A DNA stretch of 48,948 bases, taken from Vicinamibacterales bacterium (GTDB taxonomy: Bacteria > Acidobacteriota > Vicinamibacteria > Vicinamibacterales > UBA2999). A program made the translations under genes and the position numbers. The DNA lies in the NCBI GenBank assembly GCA_030680175.1, contig JAUXWO010000124.1, forward strand, positions 1 to 48,948. The letters are read 5' to 3'. Of the stretch, positions 24,909 to 37,561 are shown piece by piece. Position 1 is the first letter of the stretch. Every line of letters starts with the position of its first letter. The notes under the pieces are model-generated. The model worked only from the letters and a program-made list of their open reading frames with translations. It did not search any database and was not told the origin of the DNA.

Positions 24909-25019
24909 CTAGTGGAGTGTCGTTGACAAAGAACTACCGGGCCGCCCGTTGGGCGGCCCGCGGAATTGCGGTTGAGCAGAGGCGCTGGTAGTACCGCTTC
25001 AGTCGATACACTCCACTAG
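24909..25019 (-). mobile_element. 111-bp MITE-like element, copy 2
   Basis: Inverse copy of 9518-9628 with the same perfect 12-bp ends (CTAGTGGAGTGT / ACACTCCACTAG). Its centre is a clean hairpin GGGCCGCCC-GTT-GGGCGGCCC (9-bp stem, 3-base loop). Its last bases CTAG supply the TAG stop of the TonB-receptor gene, which ends in a phenylalanine as outer-membrane barrels do. Nine differences in 111 bases from copy 1 are clustered in one five-base stretch plus scattered transitions. Confidence 0.88.
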
Positions 25020-27919
25020 AACCGCACGCCGGCGGCCACGAGGAACGTGCGGCCACCCGTGAGGCCGCCACGCGGCCGCGGGTAGTGCGCGGTGGAGGTC
25101 GCCTGGCCGTAGCGCGGACCGGTCACGTAGCCGGTCGGCAGCCCGCTCGCATCGAGCGGGCTGGCCGCGTCTGGCGCGATCGTCGTGTCCCACGCGATCG
25201 CCTTCTGGTTGTTCAGCGCGTTCAGGACCTCCACCTTGACCCACGGACCGGCCGTGCGCCACACGGGCACCCGGTACGTCACGCCAAGGTCCACGAGACC
25301 GTAGCCGGGGAACGTCTCGCTCCCCCGCTCCCCGAAGAACAGCGCCTGCGTCGACGGCAGGCTCACGTAGCCGGGGTTCAGCGCGCGCTGCGCGGCGGTC
25401 ACCGGCACCGCGTTCGCCACGAGGCTGTACGTGCGGCCCGAGTCGTAGCGCCAGAGCTGTGCCACGTCCACCTGGCCGACGCGCCCAAGGTCCATGCGAT
25501 AGATGGTCCACAGCCGCACCTTGTGGCGCTGGAACTCGTCGAGCCGCCCCGACGGGTTGTTGCGCGCCGCGGTGAACACCTCCGGGTAGTCCCCAATCAC
25601 CGACCCGATCCCGGGCTGGTTGGCCGCCTCGCCTTCGAACGTGCCGTGGTTGCGGAGCTGCACCGTCCACTGGCCTTCGACCTGCCACCGTGACGTCAGG
25701 CGCTGGCTGCCGGCCACGATCACCGCCTGGTAGTCGCGCGACGGCTCGTCCGAGTTCCGGTAGTAGATGTTGTCGAAGGTGCCGAACGTCACACCGTTCT
25801 GCACGACCGTCGTCCGGCCGTCGGCCGTCGGCCGGTCGATGAACGACTCGATGAGCCCGGTGGCCGTGCGCCACACGTAGGTGCCGCGCACCACGCCCTG
25901 GCCGATTTCGCGGCCGAGCGACAGCGTCACCTCGCGCGTCACCGGCGTCCGCAGGTCCTCGTCGAGGAACACGTTCGCCGTCGGGAACACGCCCCCGATC
26001 ACGACGTAGTTGGCCAGGTTGGCCGCGGGCGCGAAGTCGCGGCCCTGACCGGCCGGCCCGACATACCCGTAGCCCACGCGCGCGGCGTTGCCCACGGGCG
26101 TGTTGCGCCCGAACTGGTACGACGAGTACCGCCCGGCGTAGTGCCCATACGACGCGTTCAGCACGGTGCGCCCGCGGCCGTCGAGGTCCACCGTCGCGCC
26201 GAGGCGTGGCACCCACGTGCTGGCCGAGATGCCGGGCGCATCGCCCGTCGCCGTGCTCGACGCGTGCTCGACGCGCAGCCCGAGGTCCAGCGTCAGCCGC
26301 GACATCGGCGTCCAGCGATCCTGGACGAAGAACGACAGCGTCGTGATGTCCATCTGGGCGCCGCGCGTGGCCACCGACTGCGTCAGGGTCGTGCCGCCCG
26401 GAATCCAGACCGGCACGAGCCGGCCGTCCGCGCCGACGACCGGCGCGCCGCCAGCGATCGCGTAGTCGGTGTTGACGATGAAGCCGGTGGCGCTCTGGGA
26501 GTTGCCGCCACGGAAGACCGACGTGAAGTGCTCGACGCCCGCCTTGACGTCGTGCGTGCCCCACGAGGGGCTCGACGCGAAGTACGCGACCGACCCGGTG
26601 AACTGGCGGTTGTCGCGGTCCTCGGGATCCGTGCGATCGAAGTACGGCGCGTTGAAGTGCTGCGATCGCGGCGCCACGCGGCCGATCGTCAGCATCGGCG
26701 AATCGGCGAATGCCGTGCTCGTGCCGCCGAACCGCGGGTGGTTCGTCTTCTGCGAGTACTGGGCCGTCGCGAAGAATTGGTTCGACACCACGCCCGACCA
26801 GCGGCCGACAAACAGCGTCCCCGGCTGCTCGGTGTCGTCACCGGCGTTCGGATCGATCGTGAACGGCAGCGACGGCTGCCGCGTGCTCTGCTGCCGGCCG
26901 GTGTACTGCGCCTGCAGGGTCTGATTGGGCCACGGCGAGCCGGTCAGCTTCACCTCGAGGCGCGTCGCGTCGGTCGTCGTCTCGAACGGCGCCCCCGTCG
27001 CGGGGAGCGCCGCGGTCGTGTCGGACGCCTGCATCCGCCCCGCCGTGAAGAACCAGAGGCGCTCGCGCAGGACCGGGCCGCCCAGCGTGGCCTCGTAATG
27101 ACGGTCGATGTGGCTCGGCCGCTCGAGGCCGGCGGTCTTCTCGAACGGCGTCTCCGTGCTCCAGGCCGCGTTCGACAGGTTGGCGCGCAGGCTGCCGGCG
27201 AACAGATCGCCGCCGCGCCGTGTGACGACGTTGACCACGGCGCCGGAGAAGCGCCCGTACTCGGCGGACATCGCCGACGTCTGCACTTCGGTCTCCTCGA
27301 CCGCGTCCTCGATGAACAGGTCGTCGGGACGCCCGAACAGGTTGTCATTGACGTCGACACCATCGACCAGGAACAGGCTGTCGTAGGCGAACGCGCCGCT
27401 GGCGGCAATCTGGTTGACGTTGGGCGTGTTGGCCGTCAGCCCCGGCGCCATCTCCGCGATGAGCGACGGCGTCCGGCCCATCGGCAGCCGGTCCACATCC
27501 GCGCCAGGCAGGTTGAGCCCCGCCGAGGGGCGATTGAGGACCGAGGGGCGCGACGCCACCACCGTCACGGCCTCGGAGGCCGTCACCGGACGCAGCACCG
27601 CGTCGAGGATGGCGACCGCCCCGAGCGGCACCGTCACCACCTGGTCGGGTGCCGAGAGCTCCGCGAGGGCGACGCGCACCGTGTACTCACCGGGCGGCAA
27701 CGCCCGCACGATATACGCGCCAGCGACATCCGTTACCGTCGACCGCGCCCCCGGCAAGGCCGGGGAGGTCACCGTGACGGTCGCGCCGGGAATGCGGGTG
27801 CCGTCCGACGCCCGGACGACCCCGGTCAGGTCGCCGGTCTGGACGCCCTGGGCGGCGGCGCCGACGACGAAGAGGAGAAGGGCCGCTACCGTGGCCACCG
27901 TCCGTACAAAAGATTGCAT
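25016..27919 (-). CDS. TonB-dependent receptor with N-terminal carboxypeptidase-like domain
   Basis: A 967-residue outer-membrane receptor; ATG 27919 has AAGGAG seven bases upstream (an upstream in-frame stretch lacks signal sequence). Signal peptide 1-24 (ends GAAAQG). Residues 28-115 form a carboxypeptidase regulatory-like beta-sandwich (LTGVVRASDGTRIPGATVTV, GAYIVRALPPGEYTVRV). The plug follows (GVDVNDNLFGRPDDL, SAEYGRFSGAVVNVVTRRGG), then a 22-strand-type barrel ending AAGVRF. This OAR/Acidobacteria architecture imports large substrates such as oligosaccharides or peptides. No TonB box was located with confidence. The stop codon lies inside the MITE-like element. Confidence 0.93.
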   Translation of the reverse strand: MQSFVRTVATVAALLLFVVGAAAQGVQTGDLTGVVRASDGTRIPGATVTVTSPALPGARSTVTDVAGAYIVRALPPGEYTVRVALAELSAPDQVVTVPLGAVAILDAVLRPVTASEAVTVVASRPSVLNRPSAGLNLPGADVDRLPMGRTPSLIAEMAPGLTANTPNVNQIAASGAFAYDSLFLVDGVDVNDNLFGRPDDLFIEDAVEETEVQTSAMSAEYGRFSGAVVNVVTRRGGDLFAGSLRANLSNAAWSTETPFEKTAGLERPSHIDRHYEATLGGPVLRERLWFFTAGRMQASDTTAALPATGAPFETTTDATRLEVKLTGSPWPNQTLQAQYTGRQQSTRQPSLPFTIDPNAGDDTEQPGTLFVGRWSGVVSNQFFATAQYSQKTNHPRFGGTSTAFADSPMLTIGRVAPRSQHFNAPYFDRTDPEDRDNRQFTGSVAYFASSPSWGTHDVKAGVEHFTSVFRGGNSQSATGFIVNTDYAIAGGAPVVGADGRLVPVWIPGGTTLTQSVATRGAQMDITTLSFFVQDRWTPMSRLTLDLGLRVEHASSTATGDAPGISASTWVPRLGATVDLDGRGRTVLNASYGHYAGRYSSYQFGRNTPVGNAARVGYGYVGPAGQGRDFAPAANLANYVVIGGVFPTANVFLDEDLRTPVTREVTLSLGREIGQGVVRGTYVWRTATGLIESFIDRPTADGRTTVVQNGVTFGTFDNIYYRNSDEPSRDYQAVIVAGSQRLTSRWQVEGQWTVQLRNHGTFEGEAANQPGIGSVIGDYPEVFTAARNNPSGRLDEFQRHKVRLWTIYRMDLGRVGQVDVAQLWRYDSGRTYSLVANAVPVTAAQRALNPGYVSLPSTQALFFGERGSETFPGYGLVDLGVTYRVPVWRTAGPWVKVEVLNALNNQKAIAWDTTIAPDAASPLDASGLPTGYVTGPRYGQATSTAHYPRPRGGLTGGRTFLVAAGVRF

Positions 27920-28325
27920 TTCGAGCTCCTTCAAATGACAGTAAGGAACTCTAGAGCAATTACTGTGCCCGCTGAGAAGGGCAGCAGGAACGCATGGCAC
28001 CGGTCAGTCCGTGAGTCGGTCCCGCCCCACGGTGTGGGCTTTTGCCCCACGAGGCTCAGGACGAGCGGCGTTCTGGCGGGACGAGCGACGGCTGGTGAGG
28101 GTGGCAGGTGGGGCGATCACCGCCGGGATTCCGCCGCCGGCCGGGCCTCGATTCGGGGTCCCGGCGGCGCGAGGTGCCTGGGATCCGGACTTCTGCATGA
28201 CGGGATCCCGAAAAGTGAATCGCCAGGCCACTGGTCCCACCGCTCGTGGCATCCGCGTGGCCTGCCGTTACACTACGGGCGATGCGCGCGCCGGTCACGA
28301 CGCGCGCGTTTCAGGAGGTCATGCG
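27920..28325. other. Divergent intergenic region between TonB receptor and CpxP-like gene
   Basis: No gene or RNA is seen in this 406-bp stretch. It holds the operator-like dyad at 27938-27966 and the ribosome sites of both divergent genes. The rest is GC-rich with partial inverted repeats such as GTGTGGG-CTTTTGC-CCCAC near 28030. Confidence 0.5.
27938..27966. promoter_or_regulatory. 7-bp inverted repeat, possible operator
   Basis: ACAGTAA, 15 bases, TTACTGT: a perfect inverted repeat 19 bp upstream of the TonB-receptor start, in an AT-rich patch of otherwise GC-rich DNA. It fits a homodimeric repressor site or the 5' UTR stem of the receptor mRNA. The regulator is not identified. Confidence 0.45.
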
Positions 28326-28949
28326 ATGAGACGGACGCACCTGGCGGCCGCGTGGCTGCTCGGCCTGGCGCTCGCGCTTCCGGCCGCGGCGCAGGAGCAC
28401 GCGCACACGCCACCCGCGGCGGATCCCGACCCCCTGCTGCGCGTGATGCTCGAGGGTCCGCACCTGGTCCTCGCCCACCATGGATTCATCCTGCTGACCG
28501 GCGCGCAACTCGATGCCCTGCGCGAGGCGCGCGGCCGCGTCTGCGCCGCGGAGGTGGACTACGTCCACGCGCGCACGCGTGCGCACGCCACGCTGGCGCA
28601 CCTGCTGGAGGATGACGCGGACGAGACGCGCACGGCGGCGGCGGTGGAGGCGCTCGCGCGGGCCGAGGCGGCGTGGACCCGCGCGCTGATCCGCGCGCGT
28701 CAGGAGACGCGGGCGGCCCTCGGCCCGGCCGAGCGCGCGCAGGTCGCGTGGCTTGGAACGCACTGGGCGCAGGAAGCGCGCGCGATGATCGACGCCACGA
28801 CCCACGCCGGCCACCGGGGCCACCCCGGCCTGCAGGTGCCGATTCGCGTGCCGGGGATGGTGGTGGCTGACACCGCCCTCGCCCCCGCCTGCGACGCCCT
28901 GCACGGCCCCGCCGTGCACCTCAGCGTGCCGCCGCCTGGCGAAAGGTGA
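28326..28949 (+). CDS. CpxP/Spy-like periplasmic protein
   Basis: A 207-residue protein from ATG 28326 (AGGAGG seven bases upstream), with signal peptide 1-22 (ALALPAAAQ). The mature chain is all-helical and begins LAHHGFILLTGAQLDALREARG; the LTxxQ-type phrase is typical of Spy/CpxP/ZraP periplasmic sensors or chaperones. Many histidines (QEHAHTPP, THAGHRGHPG) could bind metal. Divergent from the TonB receptor. The CpxP label is a motif-level call only. Confidence 0.6.
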   Translation: MRRTHLAAAWLLGLALALPAAAQEHAHTPPAADPDPLLRVMLEGPHLVLAHHGFILLTGAQLDALREARGRVCAAEVDYVHARTRAHATLAHLLEDDADETRTAAAVEALARAEAAWTRALIRARQETRAALGPAERAQVAWLGTHWAQEARAMIDATTHAGHRGHPGLQVPIRVPGMVVADTALAPACDALHGPAVHLSVPPPGER

Positions 28950-29140: not shown

Positions 29141-29998
29141 TCACCGCCCTCCGTCCACTGTCACCCGCACATATCCGTTCGTCCAGCAGCACTGGTGGCC
29201 GGGGGCGCTGTCGGTGATGCCGAAGTTGTCGACCCGCACGCGGAGCATGTAATCCCCGGGGGCGCTGAACGTCGCCATCGTCGTCGCCTCGCCGCCGCCG
29301 GGCGCCGTCCGCGCGGTGCGCGGCTCGAAGGCGACCTCGCCCGGTCCCTGATACTTGAACCACGTCATCGACGTCGGGATGGGCTTGCGCTCGCCACGGT
29401 CTTCCATCCAGATGCGGATCGCGAGCGGGCGGCCGACCATCGCGGTCTGCGGCTCGGATGTGACCCCTTCGCGCCCCTGCGACGGCGGGCCGTCGGGTGC
29501 GAAGCGGACGATGGGCATGAGGGAGCCGGCGGCCTGGGGCGTGTAGGAGAGCTCGTAGGCGGAGTCACGCGCGCGGCCAGGCACGGAGTAGGTGAACCCG
29601 TTGTGCGTGAGGGTCCAGACGACATCGCCGCGGAAGCCGGCCGGCACCCGCACCGCGAACGCGCCGCGCTCGCGGCGGCCGCCGAATCCGGTGTAGCTCA
29701 CCGGCGGGAAGTGCGTGGGCTGGCGGCCATCGAACTCCTCGGGCTCGATCCGGTTGCGATCGCCGATCGGGATGTCCACGACCTCGCGGGTGTTGCGGTT
29801 CATGAACCCGAACGAGAGCGTGAAGGTGCCGTCGGGGTTCGCGTACCACCCGTCAAAATACGGCGCGACGCCGGCGCCGGAGGGCGCCCCCGGCGAGAGC
29901 GGCAGCCGTGACTGCTGCCGCGCGTCCGCTACGATCATCCCGAGCGCCATCACCACCGCGGCGGCCAGCAGGCCGGCGGCTCCCCCCCGCCTCGTCAT
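29141..29998 (-). CDS. Conserved secreted protein of the cytochrome-monooxygenase cluster
   Basis: A 285-residue protein with signal peptide (1-26, ending VADAR). The mature part has short beta segments (FTLSFGFMNRNT, DVVWTLTHNGFTY) and a C-terminal PapD/FN3-like domain (TMATFSAPGDYMLRVRVDN) with a paired CC (HQCCWTNGYVRV). No domain family is recognised. Its start overlaps the stop of the upstream cytochrome gene (ATGA), so translation is coupled and the product probably works with it. Confidence 0.7.
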   Translation of the reverse strand: MTRRGGAAGLLAAAVVMALGMIVADARQQSRLPLSPGAPSGAGVAPYFDGWYANPDGTFTLSFGFMNRNTREVVDIPIGDRNRIEPEEFDGRQPTHFPPVSYTGFGGRRERGAFAVRVPAGFRGDVVWTLTHNGFTYSVPGRARDSAYELSYTPQAAGSLMPIVRFAPDGPPSQGREGVTSEPQTAMVGRPLAIRIWMEDRGERKPIPTSMTWFKYQGPGEVAFEPRTARTAPGGGEATTMATFSAPGDYMLRVRVDNFGITDSAPGHQCCWTNGYVRVTVDGGR

Positions 29999-31389
29999 CG
30001 ACGCTCACGCTCCCGGTCGCGCTCCGTCGTCAGGCGCTCGTAGCCCTGCGCGTCGAGATGCGTGACGGCGATCCACGCGTGCGACATCTCATCGGTCGTG
30101 CGGTCGCCCACCCCCACCCACTGATCGGGATCCGGGTTGTAGCGGTTGCGTGCGGTGTTGTCGTACCACGCCGTGTTGATGATCACCGACCCGGCCGGCA
30201 GGATCGGCGCGGCCTCCGGTGCGTAGACGTGGCTGTGGTGCCAGCCGGGGTTCCAGTTCGAGACCATGCTCAGCGTCTCGCGCCGGCCATCGGGGTACAA
30301 CACCTCGAGCCGCTTCGCCACGAGGCGCAGGTGCCCGTGCGGCTGCCAGCTGTCGATGCGCACGGGCGTCTCGAACCGGCGGTAGCCCTGCGTCATCAAG
30401 GTGCCGTGCGGCTCGATCTCGAAGTCGCCCGTGCCGCTCTGCAGGGCATAGAGGCCGAGCGTCTGGCGATAGCGCGTCTCGGGCGTCACGTCGCGATCGT
30501 GGAACCAGATGCCCACCTCGACCTGGTCGTCCACGATCTCGACGCCGTTCGGGTAGTAGTGGATGTCCCAGCGCACGTTCGAATTGGCGGGGGCGATGCG
30601 GCAGGCGTCCGACGGGATCACCTCGCCGATCTTCCCGAGCGCGTACTCGGACAGCCGGGTGCTGCCCGGGCCGCTGCCGCCCACGGCGTCCGGCTCGCGC
30701 GTCGAGCCGGCGGGCTCGAACGTGGAATTCGCATGGTGGGTCACGGCGCGGCCAGGCACCGACGGCTTCGTCTCGATCGCCTTGATGCAGCGGTCCTCGG
30801 TGAGGCCGCTCGGCACCGCGGGACGCCACCAGCGATCCTGGCCCTTGGCGGGCACGGTGTACGGCGCGGCCTTGATGACGAGGTCGGGCGGACCGAAGCG
30901 CTTCGCGAGGAGGTACTCGCCGGCCGGCGGCCACGTCACGGGCGGCGGCAGGTCGGCCGGATCCCCCATCGGCGCCCCGCCGTCGACCCAGCGCACCACG
31001 GTCTGGATGTCGTCGTCCGACATCCGCCAGTCGCCCTGCAGGTCCTGGATGCCGACGTGGGTGTCGTAGTGATACGGCGGCATCTCGCGCTGCACGACGC
31101 GCGCCTTGATGACCGGCGCCCACCGGCGAACGTCCTCGTACTCCATCAGGCGCATGGGGCCGATGCCGCCGGGCTGATGGCAGTTCTGACAGTTCTTCTG
31201 CAGGATGGGCGCGACGTGTGTCGCGTAGGTGACCGCCGTCGATGGCGCCTGCGAGACCTCGTCGGCGCCAGTCGGCCCGTCGTGCGCCGCGCGCAGGGCG
31301 CTGACACCCAGGAGAGCGATGGCCGACATTGTCAGCACACTGGCCCAGCCGACGCGCGAGGTCCTGCCACGGGAACGGGTGCGTGCCAT
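29995..31389 (-). CDS. Cytochrome c fused to PHM-like copper type II monooxygenase domain
   Basis: A 464-residue exported protein, ATG 31389 with GGAGG seven bases upstream; an N-terminal hydrophobic helix serves as signal or anchor. Residues 55-150 form a cytochrome c domain with haem motif CQNCH (67-71). Residues 200-450 resemble the two beta domains of peptidylglycine alpha-hydroxylating/dopamine beta monooxygenases, and all expected copper ligands can be placed: HH 218-219 and H277 (CuH), H351/H353 in QPHGH and M435 in DEMSH (CuM). Extra histidines occur in GWHHSH (384-387). Such enzymes hydroxylate C-H bonds using O2 and an electron donor, normally ascorbate; here the haem may feed electrons. 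It lies between a PQQ dehydrogenase and a coupled secreted protein. Confidence 0.82.
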   Translation of the reverse strand: MARTRSRGRTSRVGWASVLTMSAIALLGVSALRAAHDGPTGADEVSQAPSTAVTYATHVAPILQKNCQNCHQPGGIGPMRLMEYEDVRRWAPVIKARVVQREMPPYHYDTHVGIQDLQGDWRMSDDDIQTVVRWVDGGAPMGDPADLPPPVTWPPAGEYLLAKRFGPPDLVIKAAPYTVPAKGQDRWWRPAVPSGLTEDRCIKAIETKPSVPGRAVTHHANSTFEPAGSTREPDAVGGSGPGSTRLSEYALGKIGEVIPSDACRIAPANSNVRWDIHYYPNGVEIVDDQVEVGIWFHDRDVTPETRYRQTLGLYALQSGTGDFEIEPHGTLMTQGYRRFETPVRIDSWQPHGHLRLVAKRLEVLYPDGRRETLSMVSNWNPGWHHSHVYAPEAAPILPAGSVIINTAWYDNTARNRYNPDPDQWVGVGDRTTDEMSHAWIAVTHLDAQGYERLTTERDRERERR

Positions 31390-31487
31390 CGTCTGCCTCC
31401 AGGACGTGCCGCCGACTCCTCGCGTCCCCGGTGCGAACACCGCCCGTCACCGGGATCAGCGCAGTGTCGCCTACCGCCACGCCCGCG

Positions 31488-33554
31488 TCAAGGCTCAGCT
31501 TTCGTCGCGGCCAGGCGGTAGGCGATGAGCTCGCCGGGCACGCCGGGGCCGCTCACCGACACGGTGATGTACTGGCGTCCGTCGAGCGCGTAGGTCATCG
31601 GCGACCCGGTCTGCGGTGCGGGCATGTAGACGGCGCCCACCTCGACGCCCGTGGCCTTCTCGTAGGCACGCAGCATGGCGCCCCGCCCCTGCGGCGTCTC
31701 GTTCATCCCGCCCTCGCCCGCAATCACGAGCGTCTTCGTCGTCAGCACGCCGATGCGGCCCTGCCGCCCCGTCCGTGGGATCGTCAGCCCCTTCAGCGCG
31801 GGGTGGTTCCTGACGGCATCCGGCGTCTCGCCGTGCGCGATCTGCCACGCCAGCGTGCCGGCATTCAGGTCGAGCGCGGTGATGCGCCCGTACGGCGGCT
31901 TCACGAGCGGCAGTCCTTGGACGTTCAGCTGTGGAAACGATGGCCGCCCGCTCGTGTCGGCGGGATCGCCGGCAAAGCCGCGCACGTGCCGCATGTCGGA
32001 CTTGGTGCGCTCGCCGGGCACCAGCGCGACCGCGGAGATGTTGGTGTTCGAGAAGATGTAGAAGTAGTTGGTCTCGGGATCGAGCGATCCGCCCTGCCAG
32101 TTGGCGCCGCCGGTGATGTTCGGCAGCATGAGCGTCGCGCGCGGCCCCTCCCACTGGCTGACGACCGGCGGCGTGAACAGCGGCCCGAGCTTGAAGCGCT
32201 CGACCAGCGCGACGGCTTCCGCGCGCAGCGCCGGGGTGAAGTCGATCAGATCGTCGATCGAGACGCCCTGCCGGTCGAAGGCCGGCGGCTTCGTCACGAA
32301 CGGCTGCGTCGGCGAGTACCACTCCCCGGGGACGTCGCCGCGCTCCACGGGCCGCTCCTCGATCGGCCACACGGGCTCGCCCGTCGCCCGGTCGAACACG
32401 TAGACCCAGCCCTGCTTGGTCGCCTGGGCTACGGCCTTCACCACGCGGCCATCGATGCGCAGGTCCGCCAGGATCGGCGCGCACGGGATGTCGTGATCCC
32501 AGATGCCGTGATGCACGAGCTGGTAGTGCCAGCGCCGCTCCCCCGTGTGGATGTCCACGGCGACGAGGCTCTCGCTGAACAGGTTGTTCCCGGGGCGATG
32601 GCCGCCGTAGTAGTCGCCCGTCGGCACCTCCACCGGCAGGTAGACGAGCCCGAGCTCCTCGTCCACGGTCATCTGCACCCAGACGCCCGTGTTGCCGGTG
32701 TACTCCCACGAGCCGTCCTCCCACGTCTCGTGGCCGAACTCCCCCGGGCCGGGCACGGTCTTGAAGATCCACAGCCGCCGGCCCGTGCGCACGTCGTAGC
32801 CCCGCACGTAGCCCTTGATGTTGGTCTTGCTCGGCGGCGTACCGCCCTCGGCATGCGCCGCGCCGATGATGATGGTGTTCCCGACGACGATCGGCGCCGA
32901 GTGCAGGCCGATGTCGCCGGTGATCGGATCGATGTCCTGATCCATCTCGCGCTTCAGGTCGACGATGCCGCCGGCGCCGAAGGTGGGGATGCGGTGGCCG
33001 GTCGCCGTGTCGAGGGCGACGAGCTGGTACCCCGGCGTCACGTAGAGGATGCGCGACTCGCCGCCGCCCGCCCAGTACGCCAGGCCGCGGCCCGACAGGC
33101 GGCGCGGCGCCGCCTGCCCGCGCGGCCCTTCGTCGAGCCGGTGCATCCACTTCATCTCGCCGGTTGCCGCGTCCAGCGCGACGGCCGCGCGGCGCGACCC
33201 CGCGGTGAGGTACAGCGTGCCGTCCACCATGAGCGGCGTCGCCTGGAACGCGAACTCGGGCGTCGGACCCAGATTCTCGGTCCGGAACCGCCAGGCGATC
33301 TCGAGCCGGTTGAAGTTGCTCGCGTCGACCTCGGCCAGCGGCGAGTACCGCCGGCTGGCGAGGTCGCCGCCGTAGGTGGGCCATTGCCCGTCGAGCGTGC
33401 CGCGGGCGATCGGATCTCCCGCCTGCCCGGCCAATGGGAGCGCCGCGGCCGTGACGAGCGCCGCCCGCAGGCCCCACCGGACCGCGGCGGCGCGCCACGT
33501 CCACGCGCGTCCGCCGGAAATGTCTCGCCGTGTCTCCATCGCACTCATCTGCAT
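31488..33554 (-). CDS. Exported PQQ-dependent dehydrogenase (quinoprotein beta-propeller)
   Basis: A 688-residue protein. The start is 33554 (ATG 33539 is the alternative, at METRRD). Signal region 24-44 (WGLRAALVTAAALPLAGQ). The rest is an eight-bladed beta-propeller with repeated W-motif phrases (LNRLEIAWRFRTENLG, WPTYGGDLASRRYSPLAEVDASNF, AGTLAWQIAHGETPDA), as in glucose/alcohol quinoprotein dehydrogenases. It oxidises a sugar or alcohol in the periplasm, passing electrons onward. No CxxCH is present, so an external acceptor is needed; the cytochrome 98 bp downstream is the obvious candidate. Substrate is not predictable. Confidence 0.9.
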   Translation of the reverse strand: MQMSAMETRRDISGGRAWTWRAAAVRWGLRAALVTAAALPLAGQAGDPIARGTLDGQWPTYGGDLASRRYSPLAEVDASNFNRLEIAWRFRTENLGPTPEFAFQATPLMVDGTLYLTAGSRRAAVALDAATGEMKWMHRLDEGPRGQAAPRRLSGRGLAYWAGGGESRILYVTPGYQLVALDTATGHRIPTFGAGGIVDLKREMDQDIDPITGDIGLHSAPIVVGNTIIIGAAHAEGGTPPSKTNIKGYVRGYDVRTGRRLWIFKTVPGPGEFGHETWEDGSWEYTGNTGVWVQMTVDEELGLVYLPVEVPTGDYYGGHRPGNNLFSESLVAVDIHTGERRWHYQLVHHGIWDHDIPCAPILADLRIDGRVVKAVAQATKQGWVYVFDRATGEPVWPIEERPVERGDVPGEWYSPTQPFVTKPPAFDRQGVSIDDLIDFTPALRAEAVALVERFKLGPLFTPPVVSQWEGPRATLMLPNITGGANWQGGSLDPETNYFYIFSNTNISAVALVPGERTKSDMRHVRGFAGDPADTSGRPSFPQLNVQGLPLVKPPYGRITALDLNAGTLAWQIAHGETPDAVRNHPALKGLTIPRTGRQGRIGVLTTKTLVIAGEGGMNETPQGRGAMLRAYEKATGVEVGAVYMPAPQTGSPMTYALDGRQYITVSVSGPGVPGELIAYRLAATKAEP

Positions 33555-33731: not shown

Positions 33732-35495
33732 GTGGGACTTGGCACCTTGGCGTTTCTGTCGGTGATGCCGATCGCGGTGGTGGCGCTCTTTCTCGTCATC
33801 CTCCGCTGGCCGGCCAGCAAGGCGATGCCCATCTCGTACGCGGTGGCCGTCGCGCTGGCGCTCGGCGTGTGGCAGATCACCGCGGCGCAGGTGGCGGCCG
33901 CCACCATCAACGGGCTGGTCACCGCCGCCTCGCTCGTCTACATCATCTTCGGCGCCATCCTGCTCCTGAACGTCCTGCAGGAGAGCGGCGGCCTCAAGGC
34001 CATCCGCCTCGGCTTCACCAACATCACGCCCGACCGCCGCGTGCAGGTCATCATCATCGCGTGGCTCTTCGGCAGCTTCATCGAAGGGTCCGCGGGCTTC
34101 GGCACGCCCGCCGCCGTGGCCGTGCCCCTGATGGTCGGCCTCGGCTTCCCCGGCATGGCGGCCGTCGTCGCCGGCATGGTCATCCAGAGCACGCCGGTCT
34201 CGTTCGGCGCCGTCGGCACCCCCATCCTCGTCGGCGTCGGCACGGGGCTGAACGACGATGCGGTGCGCGCCTACGCGGCGTCGATCGGCTATGCCGACTG
34301 GAACCAGTTCCTCGCGCTCATCGGCGCGAAGGTCGCCATCCTCCACGCGGTGGCCGGCACGCTGATCCCCCTGTTCGTCGTGGCCTTGATGACGCGCTTC
34401 TTCGGGCCGAGCCGCTCCTTCACCGACGGGCTGCGCGTGTGGCGGTTCGCGCTGTTCGCCGCCTTTGCGATGACGGTGCCGTACGTGCTGCTCGCCAACT
34501 TCCTCGGGCCGGAGTTCCCGTCGATGTTTGGCGGCCTGATCGGCCTCGCGATCGTCGTGCCCGCGGCCAAGCGCGGCTTCCTGATGCCGCCGGACGACGA
34601 CCACTGGGATTTCGAGGCGCGGGAACGCTGGGAGCCGGAGTGGACCGGCACGATCCGTCCCCGCGACATCGACCACCGTGACGGGCCCATGTCGCTCGCG
34701 CTCGCGTGGTCGCCGTACGTGCTCGTCGGCGTGCTGCTCGTGCTGACCCGCCTCCGGACGATCCCGATCGGGTCCACGCTGCAGTCGTGGACGCTCAGCT
34801 GGGCCGACATCTTCGGCACCGGGATCACCGCCAGCGTGCAGCCCCTCTACCTCCCCGGCACGATCTTCATCGTCGTGGCGCTCGTGACGTTCTTCCTGCA
34901 CCGCATGGACACGACGGCGTTCTCGCACGCCGTGGCCAGCTCCTCCAAGGTGATGCTCGGCGCCTCGGCGGCGCTCGTCTTCACCGTGCCGATGGTGCAG
35001 GTGTTCATCAACAGCGGGGGCGGCGCCGCCGGCTACGAGCGGATGCCCATCGTGCTGGCCGAGAGCATCGCCGCGGTGGCGGGATCGGCCTGGCCGTTCT
35101 TCGCGCCGCTCATCGGCGGCCTCGGGGCGTTCGTCGCCGGCAGCAACACCGTCAGCAACATGATGTTCGCGCTCTTCCAGTTCGGTGTCGCGCAGCGCAT
35201 CGCGGTGGACCCGACCTGGATCGTCGCCCTGCAGGCCGTCGGCGGCGCGGCCGGCAACGTCATCTGCGTCCACAACGTCGTGGCCGCCTCCGCCGTTGTC
35301 GGCCTGACGGGGCGCGAAGGCATCGTCATCCGCAAGACGCTGCTGCCCTGGGCCTACTACACGGTGCTGGCCGGATCGCTCGGCTACGCCATCGTGTGGT
35401 TCGGGCAGACCGGGATCGTCAACGCCGGCTCGATCGGCGTGCTCCTGGTCGCCGCGACCGCCGTGTGGGTGGTGGCCTCGCACCTGAAACGCTGA
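33732..35495 (+). CDS. lctP: L-lactate permease
   Basis: A 587-residue inner-membrane transporter with about 13 hydrophobic helices. It starts at GTG 33732 with GAGGAGA just upstream. Conserved lactate-permease phrases: [41 protein letters not shown], and near the end [18 protein letters not shown] and [15 protein letters not shown]. The long basic loop (about 285-320, [13 protein letters not shown]) is typical. It carries lactate (and glycolate) in symport with protons. The next gene is malate synthase, so lactate/glycolate-derived carbon may be channelled through glyoxylate. The promoter region (33555-33731) has a GGAAATTCC palindrome. Confidence 0.93.
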
Positions 35496-35686: not shown

Positions 35687-37561
35687 ATGCACACCCTTGA
35701 ATTCCGTAGCCAGGTCGCACGTGACTATGCCGATGTGCTGAGCCCGGGGGTCCGCGCGGCCCTCGACCGGCTCGCGCCGTTCGAGATCGATCGCCAGGCG
35801 CTGATGACCGCGCGCATCGCCCGGCGCCGGGCCCGCGCGGCACGGCGCGAGGCCATCCGCTTCCTCGATCCCGCGTCGACGATCGGCCGGACCTCCCTCA
35901 CCGTGGACCAGGCGCGACGCGGCGACTTCGACGGCAGCGACATCCCCGCCGATCTCACCCGCCAGTGGATCCAGGGCACCGGCCCCGCGGCCCGCCCGCG
36001 CGCCACGCTCGAGCAGAGCCTGCGGAACGTGGCCTACGCCCTGCTGTCGGGCGCTGACGGCTGGATGTTCGACGGCGAGGACGCCCTCGGTCAGACGTCC
36101 ACGATGTCGCTCGACAATCAGCGCAACCTGCGGCTGGCCCTCGCGCGCGCGCCGGAGTTCCTGCGCGTCGCCGAGCAGGTCGCCGCCGAGATGAACCGGT
36201 GGGCCGAGGGCTTCTTCGGCCGCCCCATCATCGACGACTGGCGCGCGCAGCTCGACTTCACCACGCCCATCTTCCGCGCGCGCGGCCTCCACCTCGACGA
36301 CCGGCACATCCGCCTCGCCAACGGGCACGGCTTCTCCGCCTCGATCGTCGACATGACCTGCTACGTCACCACCAACCACCAGGTCCTCCGCGACGCCGGC
36401 CGCACCGTGGTGCTCTACCTGCCGAAAATTCAGACAGCGGAAGAGGCCGCCCTCTGGCACGACATGCTGGCCGCGCTCGAGGCGCATCTCGGTCTCGCCG
36501 TGGGCACGGTCAAGACGTATGTGCTCGTCGAGCAGCTCGAGGCCTGCTTCCAGCTCATGGAGATCCGCGCCGCGCTCGGGCCGCGCTTCGTCGGCTACAA
36601 CACGGGGCGCTGGGACTACATCAACAGCGTGTCGGACGCGATCGCCTGGGACCCGGCCTTCCAGAATCCGAACATCGACGCCATCACCATGACGTACGGC
36701 TACATGCGCCACTACGAGGACCGCGTGCGGCGCGCCGTCAACACGCCCGACCGGCAGGGCCGCTCGGCCCTCTGGCAGGGCGGCATGGAGCCGAACATCC
36801 CCGTGGGCTCCGAGGCCGGTGTCGAGGCCGGGATGCGCCGCGCCGTCGGCGGCGCCGAGCGCGAGCAGGCCGCCGGCGCCAGCGGCAAGTGGGTCGCCCA
36901 CTGGAAGATGGTCCACATCGTCCGGCCCGTGTGGGAGCGGGCCGGACAGCCCAACCAGCTCGGGCGCGAGTTCCCCCCGCTCACCTACACGGACGTTGAC
37001 GCCGCCGGCCTGCGCCTCCTCGAGCCCGCGCCACGCACCATGCGCGGCGCCCGCGACCTGCTGAGCGTCGCGCTGCAGTACGGCAACGCGTTCGGCCAGG
37101 GCATGCAGGCGGCCGCGCTCAAGCCCGCCGACTTCTTCGGCAATGACGATGTGCTCTATCTGATGGAGGACATGGCCACGGGGGAGATCCGCGTGAGCAT
37201 CCTGTGGGAATGGCTCCACAAGCAGGCGCCCTTCACCGAGGCCGACGCGGCCACCGGCGTCGAGGCCGGTGACACGCTCACACCCGCGCTCTTCGCGCGC
37301 CTGCTCGACGAGGAGTACGCCAAGCTGCTGGCCGCCGGCAGCCGCGACGTGCACGATCACTCCAAGACGACGACGCTCCCCATCGCGCGCGCGATCGTCG
37401 ACGCGGTGGTCACGCACCCCACCAAGGCGCCGTGGTTCATCGATCTGCTGAACCTGACGCTCGACAACGAGGACCTGGCCGAGGCGGAGCGGCGCATCGC
37501 CGACTACATGGCCCGCTTCGCCGCCGACGGCACCCGGCTGACGCACAACCTCGACTTCTGA
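35687..37561 (+). CDS. aceB: Malate synthase (type A-like, long form)
   Basis: A 624-residue enzyme that condenses glyoxylate and acetyl-CoA to malate. Signature phrases: TVKTYVLVEQLEACFQLMEIRAAL (active-site Glu region near 285), GYNTGRWDYINS (usual GLNCGRWDY), MTYGYMRHYEDRV, GGMEPNIPVGSEAG and KWVAHWKMVH. It is about 90 residues longer than E. coli AceB, as in some Acidobacteria-type synthases. No isocitrate lyase is in the window. Its start lies 21 bp after a foldback element that separates it from lctP. Confidence 0.93.
   Translation: MHTLEFRSQVARDYADVLSPGVRAALDRLAPFEIDRQALMTARIARRRARAARREAIRFLDPASTIGRTSLTVDQARRGDFDGSDIPADLTRQWIQGTGPAARPRATLEQSLRNVAYALLSGADGWMFDGEDALGQTSTMSLDNQRNLRLALARAPEFLRVAEQVAAEMNRWAEGFFGRPIIDDWRAQLDFTTPIFRARGLHLDDRHIRLANGHGFSASIVDMTCYVTTNHQVLRDAGRTVVLYLPKIQTAEEAALWHDMLAALEAHLGLAVGTVKTYVLVEQLEACFQLMEIRAALGPRFVGYNTGRWDYINSVSDAIAWDPAFQNPNIDAITMTYGYMRHYEDRVRRAVNTPDRQGRSALWQGGMEPNIPVGSEAGVEAGMRRAVGGAEREQAAGASGKWVAHWKMVHIVRPVWERAGQPNQLGREFPPLTYTDVDAAGLRLLEPAPRTMRGARDLLSVALQYGNAFGQGMQAAALKPADFFGNDDVLYLMEDMATGEIRVSILWEWLHKQAPFTEADAATGVEAGDTLTPALFARLLDEEYAKLLAAGSRDVHDHSKTTTLPIARAIVDAVVTHPTKAPWFIDLLNLTLDNEDLAEAERRIADYMARFAADGTRLTHNLDF

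Follow-up and report, generated by a model that had tools for sequence, protein, structure and literature searches.

The stretch of DNA analysed here (the window) comprises positions 1 to 48,948 of contig JAUXWO010000124.1 from a Vicinamibacterales bacterium of the phylum Acidobacteriota (assembly GCA_030680175.1), 48,948 nucleotides in all. On its minus strand lie, in the order of their transcription, a gene for a protein of the pyrroloquinoline quinone (PQQ) dehydrogenase type, a gene for a putative copper monooxygenase with a predicted fold like that of PHM and DBM (also DBH), and a gene for a secreted companion (Table 1). PHM and DBM are textbook animal enzymes that are fed by ascorbate and make amidated hormones and noradrenaline, respectively. 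Translation of the open reading frames (ORFs) bore out all three genes at the positions that a preliminary description of the sequence had assigned to them. The copper-protein gene begins at an ATG directly preceded by ctggaggcag, and its stop codon shares a four-base overlap, ATGA, with the start of the companion gene, in agreement with the translational coupling that had been proposed for the pair. The PQQ-type gene is located upstream on the same strand, across a gap of 98 nt. GC content at third codon positions is 0.92-0.94 in the three genes, and the long plus-strand frames over the same stretch (e.g. 29908-31521) were taken as high-GC shadows of the minus-strand genes.

The copper protein and its companion form the conserved unit

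The conserved unit at this locus is a two-gene cassette of copper protein and companion. From genomes other than the host's we collected the 40 best-scoring copper-protein regions, with up to 6 kb of sequence on each flank, and compared them with 20 control stretches, most of which lie 20 kb away on the same contigs and which come from the longer contigs. In 39 of the 40 regions the copper-protein gene has a relative of the companion gene beside it, both on one strand, whereas all 20 controls contain neither gene. The only exception, L141, has no companion although there is room for one. Across the 59 genomes searched, host included, companion matches occur in 27, all of them among the 37 that encode a copper protein, and the remaining 10 copper-positive genomes hold only remoter copies of it (best E 4e-50 or weaker). 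The companion lies downstream of the copper protein in 62 of 84 pairs and upstream in 22.

Copy number differs widely between genomes. The host has one copy of each gene, while genome G042 gave 35 copper-protein matches, which fall in at least 21 distinct places among the matches listed, and 28 companion matches; such per-genome counts may include several pieces of one gene. Genomes G042, G051 and G053 each have 29-35 copper-protein matches together with at least 21-28 PQQ-type matches (part of the candidates scored), which suggests an expansion of periplasmic redox enzymes in these bacteria. The plasmid collection held no match to the copper protein.

The AlphaFold model of the companion (pLDDT 90.5) begins with a signal helix and consists of beta strands from there on. 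Its structural matches, which cover mostly residues 155-285, are Ig- or PapD-like, with a best Z of 7.2 that does not exceed what common arrangements give, and from these weak matches the C-terminal half is predicted to be an Ig/PapD-like sandwich. The window companion had no match in Pfam or NCBIfam, and no enzyme signature was noticed in it; among 38 of its relatives, PKD scored weakly in 14 (best E 3.9e-5). A Cys270-Cys271-Trp272 motif near the C-terminus is kept in 39 of 41 members, these being the companion-bearing copies in the 40 best-matching regions, which were picked by match score without motif selection and from which L141 was excluded.

Table 1. Position and basis of the genes described in the window
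Feature	Position	Strand	Basis
PQQ-dehydrogenase-type propeller gene, 688 aa	31488-33554	minus	ORF and PF01011 match
Cytochrome c - PHM/DBM-fold copper monooxygenase gene (hydroxylase function inferred), 464 aa	29995-31389	minus	ORF; motif, model and profile
Secreted companion gene, 285 aa	29141-29998	minus	ORF; signal helix, beta-sandwich domains, Cys270-Cys271-Trp272
TonB-dependent outer-membrane receptor gene (OMP_b-brl_4 and CarboxypepD_reg)	25016-28000	minus	Domain matches

Haem motif, copper ligands and predicted fold of the copper protein

With approximate limits taken from the secondary structure of the model, the copper protein is divided into a signal or anchor segment (residues ~1-47), a c-type cytochrome part (~48-150) with the motif C67-Q-N-C70-H71, a CuH domain (~165-300) with H218, H219 and H277, and a CuM domain (~305-446) with H351, H353 and M435, the numbering of these residues being exactly that of the preliminary description. 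In an alignment of 80 family members, part of whose rows had been fetched with patterns holding some of the scored residues, no row departs from C67, C70, H71, M103, H218, H219, H277, H351 or H353, and 98% of the rows keep M435. All ten residues are present in 41 of the 41 companion-bearing members, and relatives that retain the gene order without the copper residues were therefore not encountered. A wider set of 29 rows, which includes a companion-less branch, has the same ten residues invariant, except that M435 is found in 28 of 29, the remaining row having an X. This degree of conservation is far beyond chance.

The axial ligand of the haem is likely to be M103, since this methionine is invariant and M79 is not. 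The cytochrome domain of the window protein scores 20.9 bits against a Pfam cut-off of 27 and is thus sub-threshold. The host genome has three Cytochrom_C_asm matches over the cut-off, and with these c-type cytochrome assembly genes the host appears able to attach haem. The copper protein has four cysteines in all, two of them within the haem motif. C201 and C263 occur together in 5 of the 29 rows and are jointly missing from the other 24, a pattern that may reflect a disulfide confined to one subclade.

The AlphaFold model of the copper protein, built from an alignment of 46 sequences, has a mean pLDDT of 83.1 and a pTM of 0.80. When this model was submitted to Foldseek, human DBH was the top match (E 1.2e-12) and the next thirty matches were further PHM or DBH chains. 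Using VIA-align, the model was matched to DBH (PDB 4zel) with a Z of 20.6 over 301 residues (3.6 A, 15% identity) and to PHM with a Z of 19.4 over 249 residues (3.1 A), and the best unrelated chain, a PNGase, reached a Z of 8.6. Neither phmmer with the window protein nor a profile of 46 close family members retrieved PHM or DBH from the PDB set, but a more diverse profile that includes the companion-less branch did reach DBH: built from 16 family members including the window protein, it ranked DBH first among 177,635 PDB sequences (E 0.0021). The profile alignment pairs the HH, H and HxH of the family with positions 223, 224, 294, 373 and 375 of the 4zel chain, and adding a constant 39 to each gives His262, 263, 333, 412 and 414 of DBH, which the excerpted text of PMC4846438 gives as the CuH and CuM histidines. 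Accordingly, H218, H219 and H277 are aligned with His262, 263 and 333, and H351 and H353 with His412 and 414. A superposition on PHM had been suggested as a check on the two copper sites; the predicted fold does match PHM and DBH, and the histidines are placed in the two sites by the sequence alignment. On the strength of model, profile and alignments, the description of the middle gene product holds: a PHM/DBM fold joined to a c-type cytochrome, every copper ligand being conserved. By sequence and fold, the prediction that both copper sites are present stands.

In our judgement, the cassette probably encodes an exported, cytochrome-fused copper monooxygenase of the PHM/DBM fold that is fed by its haem, together with an exported beta-sandwich companion, and the PQQ-type gene is separate from it. 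We infer catalysis, the direction of electron flow, export with a periplasmic location and the role of the companion along the following lines. A respiratory or periplasmic electron carrier would reduce the fused haem (His71/Met103), which would stand in for ascorbate and hand single electrons to CuH (H218, H219 and H277). At CuM (H351, H353 and M435), O2 would be activated and a C-H bond of a periplasmic substrate hydroxylated. The companion would bind the enzyme and shape substrate access or stability.

Several observations weigh against this interpretation. The window copper protein has no match to PF03712 even at E 1, and that family weakly matches 10 of 46 close relatives (best E 0.026). 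M435 was placed by its order, similar spacing and conservation, as the DBH profile alignment stops before Met487. In the wider set, a companion lies within 600 nt of 71 of 100 full-length copies, a count that includes cut contigs and the companion-less branch fetched by PF03712. The identity matrices of the 84 pairs have a correlation of 0.86, reached by none of 1000 permutations, which counts in favour of the pairing and is expected for genes that stay together, but plain co-inheritance also yields matched matrices. Finally, the role of the companion as a binding or stabilising subunit is a guess.

A protein that keeps the PHM/DBM fold and its copper could nonetheless serve in something other than hydroxylation, for example as a copper-handling, oxidase or peroxide-using protein. 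Redoxin-like genes, which occur in 5 of the 40 regions and in none of the 20 controls, might be a sign of redox stress or of the delivery of copper, both of which would suit such a protein. However, the two copper sites, with their differing ligand sets, are kept in every one of the 41 members, and the many diverged copies in single genomes such as G042 suggest that substrates have diversified, more than they suggest a housekeeping role for the metal. We therefore regard a non-hydroxylase as unlikely.

The PQQ-type gene, other neighbours and the origin of the pair

The product of the upstream gene matches the PQQ propeller domain PF01011 with an E of 4.1e-186 and falls under the NCBIfam cut-off for glucose/quinate dehydrogenases (TIGR03074, 369.2 bits vs 832.65). 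It is 29% identical to E. coli Gcd over most of its length. The positions aligned with D466, K493, R266, W404 and T424 of Gcd are kept, and those aligned with H262, E217 and N355 are changed, the alignment at the metal site being uncertain; we take these Gcd residues, D466, K493, H262, E217 and N355 among them, to act in PQQ and metal binding. The host genome encodes five PQQ-type proteins.

The preliminary description had suggested that this protein could supply the electrons of a hydroxylase chain. As a dedicated donor, the PQQ dehydrogenase would reduce the fused haem, which would in turn reduce the copper. Its position just upstream on the same strand favours such a chain, as does the retention of the Asp and Lys equivalents of Gcd. 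PQQ-type genes are also found upstream of the pair at G006:C19 (L024, directly), G006:C3 (~630 nt) and G042:C182 (just upstream), and in five of the six nearest Gemmatimonadota relatives (L031, L032, L034, L035 and L070; not L033) the pair is followed on its own strand, after 0.8-1.1 kb, by such a gene. These five genes, however, are just 49-52% identical to the window PQQ-type gene, and the frequency of PQQ-type genes (E < 1e-20) around the pair, 5 of 40 regions, is no higher than that in the controls, 3 of 20. Apart from the closer cases just named, the three-gene association is thus not kept across genomes, in contrast to the companion with its 39 of 40 vs 0 of 20.

The nearest relatives of the PQQ-type gene itself also speak against a link. 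Five sister genomes (G030, G025, G009, G034 and G021) encode a relative that is 76-80% identical, and in four of the five it is 79-80% identical and stands without the pair: the long flanks of the relative in G030, G025 and G009 (L205, L206 and L208; 78-80% in these stretches) hold no relative of the pair, and G034 has no copper-protein match in its genome. The contig of G021 is too short to judge the pair, and two of the six sister stretches, L207 and L209, were excluded as too short downstream. In G017, likewise, a relative of 68-69% identity (L210) stands without the pair, and this genome has no copper-protein match. A three-gene unit was rejected on the basis of these relatives and of the control comparison.

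The supply of the cofactor was also considered. PqqC was found in none of the 59 genomes, host included, by a detector that was positive in 3 of 17 other genomes and not in the four that carry a linked Gemmatimonadota PQQ-type gene. PqqE exceeded its cut-off in 0 of the 59, in a search that had no positive control and gave background matches in 58. With E. coli PqqU as the query, the host gave only weak matches (best E 2.5e-7, 25% identity), which speak neither for nor against a PQQ importer. Since the excerpted text of PMC12124388 reports that some Acidobacteria, of the class Vicinamibacteria, import PQQ and do not synthesise it, the window PQQ dehydrogenase may still work with scavenged PQQ, which would suit a donor role. 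Against a donor role stand the four sister genomes in which the relative lies apart from the pair, the missing PqqC and the changed metal-site positions, and we consider a dedicated PQQ donor improbable. We judge the PQQ-type gene to be an occasional, separate and native neighbour of the pair and not a member of the conserved unit.

The TonB-dependent receptor gene lies ~1.1 kb past the companion on the same strand, with a plus-strand frame in between. Its family is represented in 11 of the 40 pair regions and in 0 of the 20 controls (Fisher p 0.011), a count in which several regions come from one genome or genus, L121 and L124 overlap, and the controls again derive from longer contigs. In six of the 11 (L119, L122, L129, L131, L134 and L148, three of them from one genus), the receptor lies directly downstream on the same strand. 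This association is suggestive only, and import of the substrate through the outer membrane by the receptor is a reasonable guess and no more. In L119 and L129 one strand carries, in order, a copper protein, a companion, a TonB receptor, a Redoxin-like gene and a second copper protein, at which the stretch ends. As a route to the substrate the neighbourhood was rejected: genes for M28, M14, formamidase, beta-lactamase-like, metallo-beta-lactamase-like, NHL and FG-GAP proteins are each found at only 3-6 of 52 loci. The helicase and methyltransferase neighbours look like shared chromosomal context.

The plus-strand frame between companion and receptor (28011-28949), read from an internal ATG, would encode a signal peptide and a helical, periplasmic-looking protein, for which no Pfam match was found. 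Divergent from the PQQ-type gene, and on the strand opposite to the copper-gene cluster, are two plus-strand genes that we take to encode a lactate/glycolate permease (33732-35495) and a malate synthase (35687-37561). The idea that the latter uses glyoxylate from peptide amidation was set aside in view of its opposite strand.

To place the host, we compared its RpoB with those of six of nine comparison genomes; it is 86% identical to that of a genome of its own family, 72% to that of an Acidobacteria gp5 genome and 51% to that of a Gemmatimonadaceae genome. The copper protein, on the other hand, is 69-75% identical (best segments) to six Gemmatimonadota proteins and at most 59% identical to any within its own family and order. 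In the tree, which covers the copper gene only, the window gene groups with these six at 100/100, and the clade is nested in a wider starred group of 20 Gemmatimonadota. For the companion, tblastn gave 70-71% identity to its counterparts in the same six. Because the copper gene branches inside the Gemmatimonadota and the host is acidobacterial, the pair was probably acquired by the host. The contig itself looks native, as the PQQ-type gene has its 76-80% relatives in the five sister genomes. Base composition of the window gave no sign of recent arrival.

Two database titles are probably wrong. L082, a metagenome bin titled Bordetella parapertussis, has an RpoB 68% identical to that of the host, which lies between two acidobacterial genomes (72% and 66%), and the copper protein of L049, titled Acidimicrobiia, is identical to one (L112) in G013, a genome of the window's family.

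Remaining readings and comparison with known systems

The close pairing and matched divergence of the two proteins, together with the CCW motif near the companion's C-terminus, could also mean that the companion is a protein substrate modified by the copper enzyme and not a helper subunit. The sequence gives no hint of a modification of this kind, and the reversed gene order of 22 pairs is compatible with either role; we consider it very unlikely. Least probable of all is that the protein hydroxylates peptides as a peptidylglycine alpha-hydroxylating enzyme proper, a reading for which one could cite the fold match to PHM and the genes for M28 and M14 peptidases that some Gemmatimonadales have near the pair: by ligand offset, Q349, H437 and W439 stand where PHM has Arg240, Asn316 and Tyr318, which we take to hold the peptide carboxylate, only two cysteines lie outside the haem motif, and no lyase was noticed among the recurrent neighbours, although no search was aimed at lyases.

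The haem-fed copper monooxygenase with its companion belongs to a wider family. PF03712 (Cu2_monoox_C) has matches in 11 of 40 related genomes, at 16 places of which 9 are over the cut-off, and none in the host genome. At the 15 places tested (L089 was too short), the proteins belong to the same cytochrome-fused family and have the haem motif and the copper ligands. The cytochrome fusion is therefore probably visible in automated annotation. Three cytochrome-copper proteins (L088, L090 and L098) have C-terminal TPR repeats. In open-licence PubMed Central text, with subscription journals and preprints outside its scope, we recognised no paper on a cytochrome-fused bacterial PHM/DBM enzyme or on the companion, and the excerpted text of PMC6529398 leaves bacteria unmentioned.

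What appears new is the haem-fused branch with its undescribed partner; the type of core chemistry would be that known from PHM and DBM. A bacterial branch whose N-terminal accessory part is a covalent haem domain would reveal a second means of feeding the two-copper site, and in a haem-fused system electron entry could be followed by optical spectroscopy. An unexplored periplasmic oxidative chemistry is indicated by the partner, for whose window copy no family was found in Pfam or NCBIfam, and by the many copies that some bacteria carry. A broader picture can be offered as a tentative and rather doubtful proposal: a large, unrecognised bacterial PHM/DBM branch may run on haem electrons in place of ascorbate, its main line needing a dedicated secreted partner and, in several Acidobacteriota, being fed through neighbouring TonB receptors, with at least two dozen diverged pairs in one genome hydroxylating different imported compounds and pairs being traded between phyla as cassettes. 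For specialists, a haem-fed and highly multiplied bacterial branch and its partner would be notable, but the proposed PQQ chain is not supported, and the case cautions against taking an adjacent PQQ dehydrogenase for the electron donor.

Among known systems, the bacterial members of PF03712 share with the window protein the wider family, the haem motif and the copper ligands. They differ in that, as far as the short stretches examined reach, none of the 15 copies has a companion within 600 nt, and in matching a family that the window protein does not. The PQQ-type protein resembles Gcd in its propeller and in its equivalents of Asp466 and Lys493, and it differs in lacking a membrane domain and at His262 and the metal-ligand positions. 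The likeness to PHM (e.g. PDB 6ala and 1phm) lies in the core fold and in the order and similar spacing of the ligands. PHM, however, has no fused haem, and the window protein appears to lack counterparts of what we take to be the substrate-carboxylate residues and the disulfides of the animal enzyme.

Human DBH, which draws its electrons from ascorbate, is the top match by fold and by profile and shares a two-domain catalytic core, CuH and CuM ligands (M435 putatively among them) and an N-terminal accessory domain ahead of the core. We know of no settled function for this accessory domain, a DOMON domain. The C-terminal dimerisation domain of DBH is without a counterpart in the window protein, which ends soon after the core. 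At the N-terminus the two proteins differ in kind: according to the excerpted text of PMC4846438, the DOMON domain of DBH is without typical haem ligands, whereas the window protein has a c-type cytochrome in its place.

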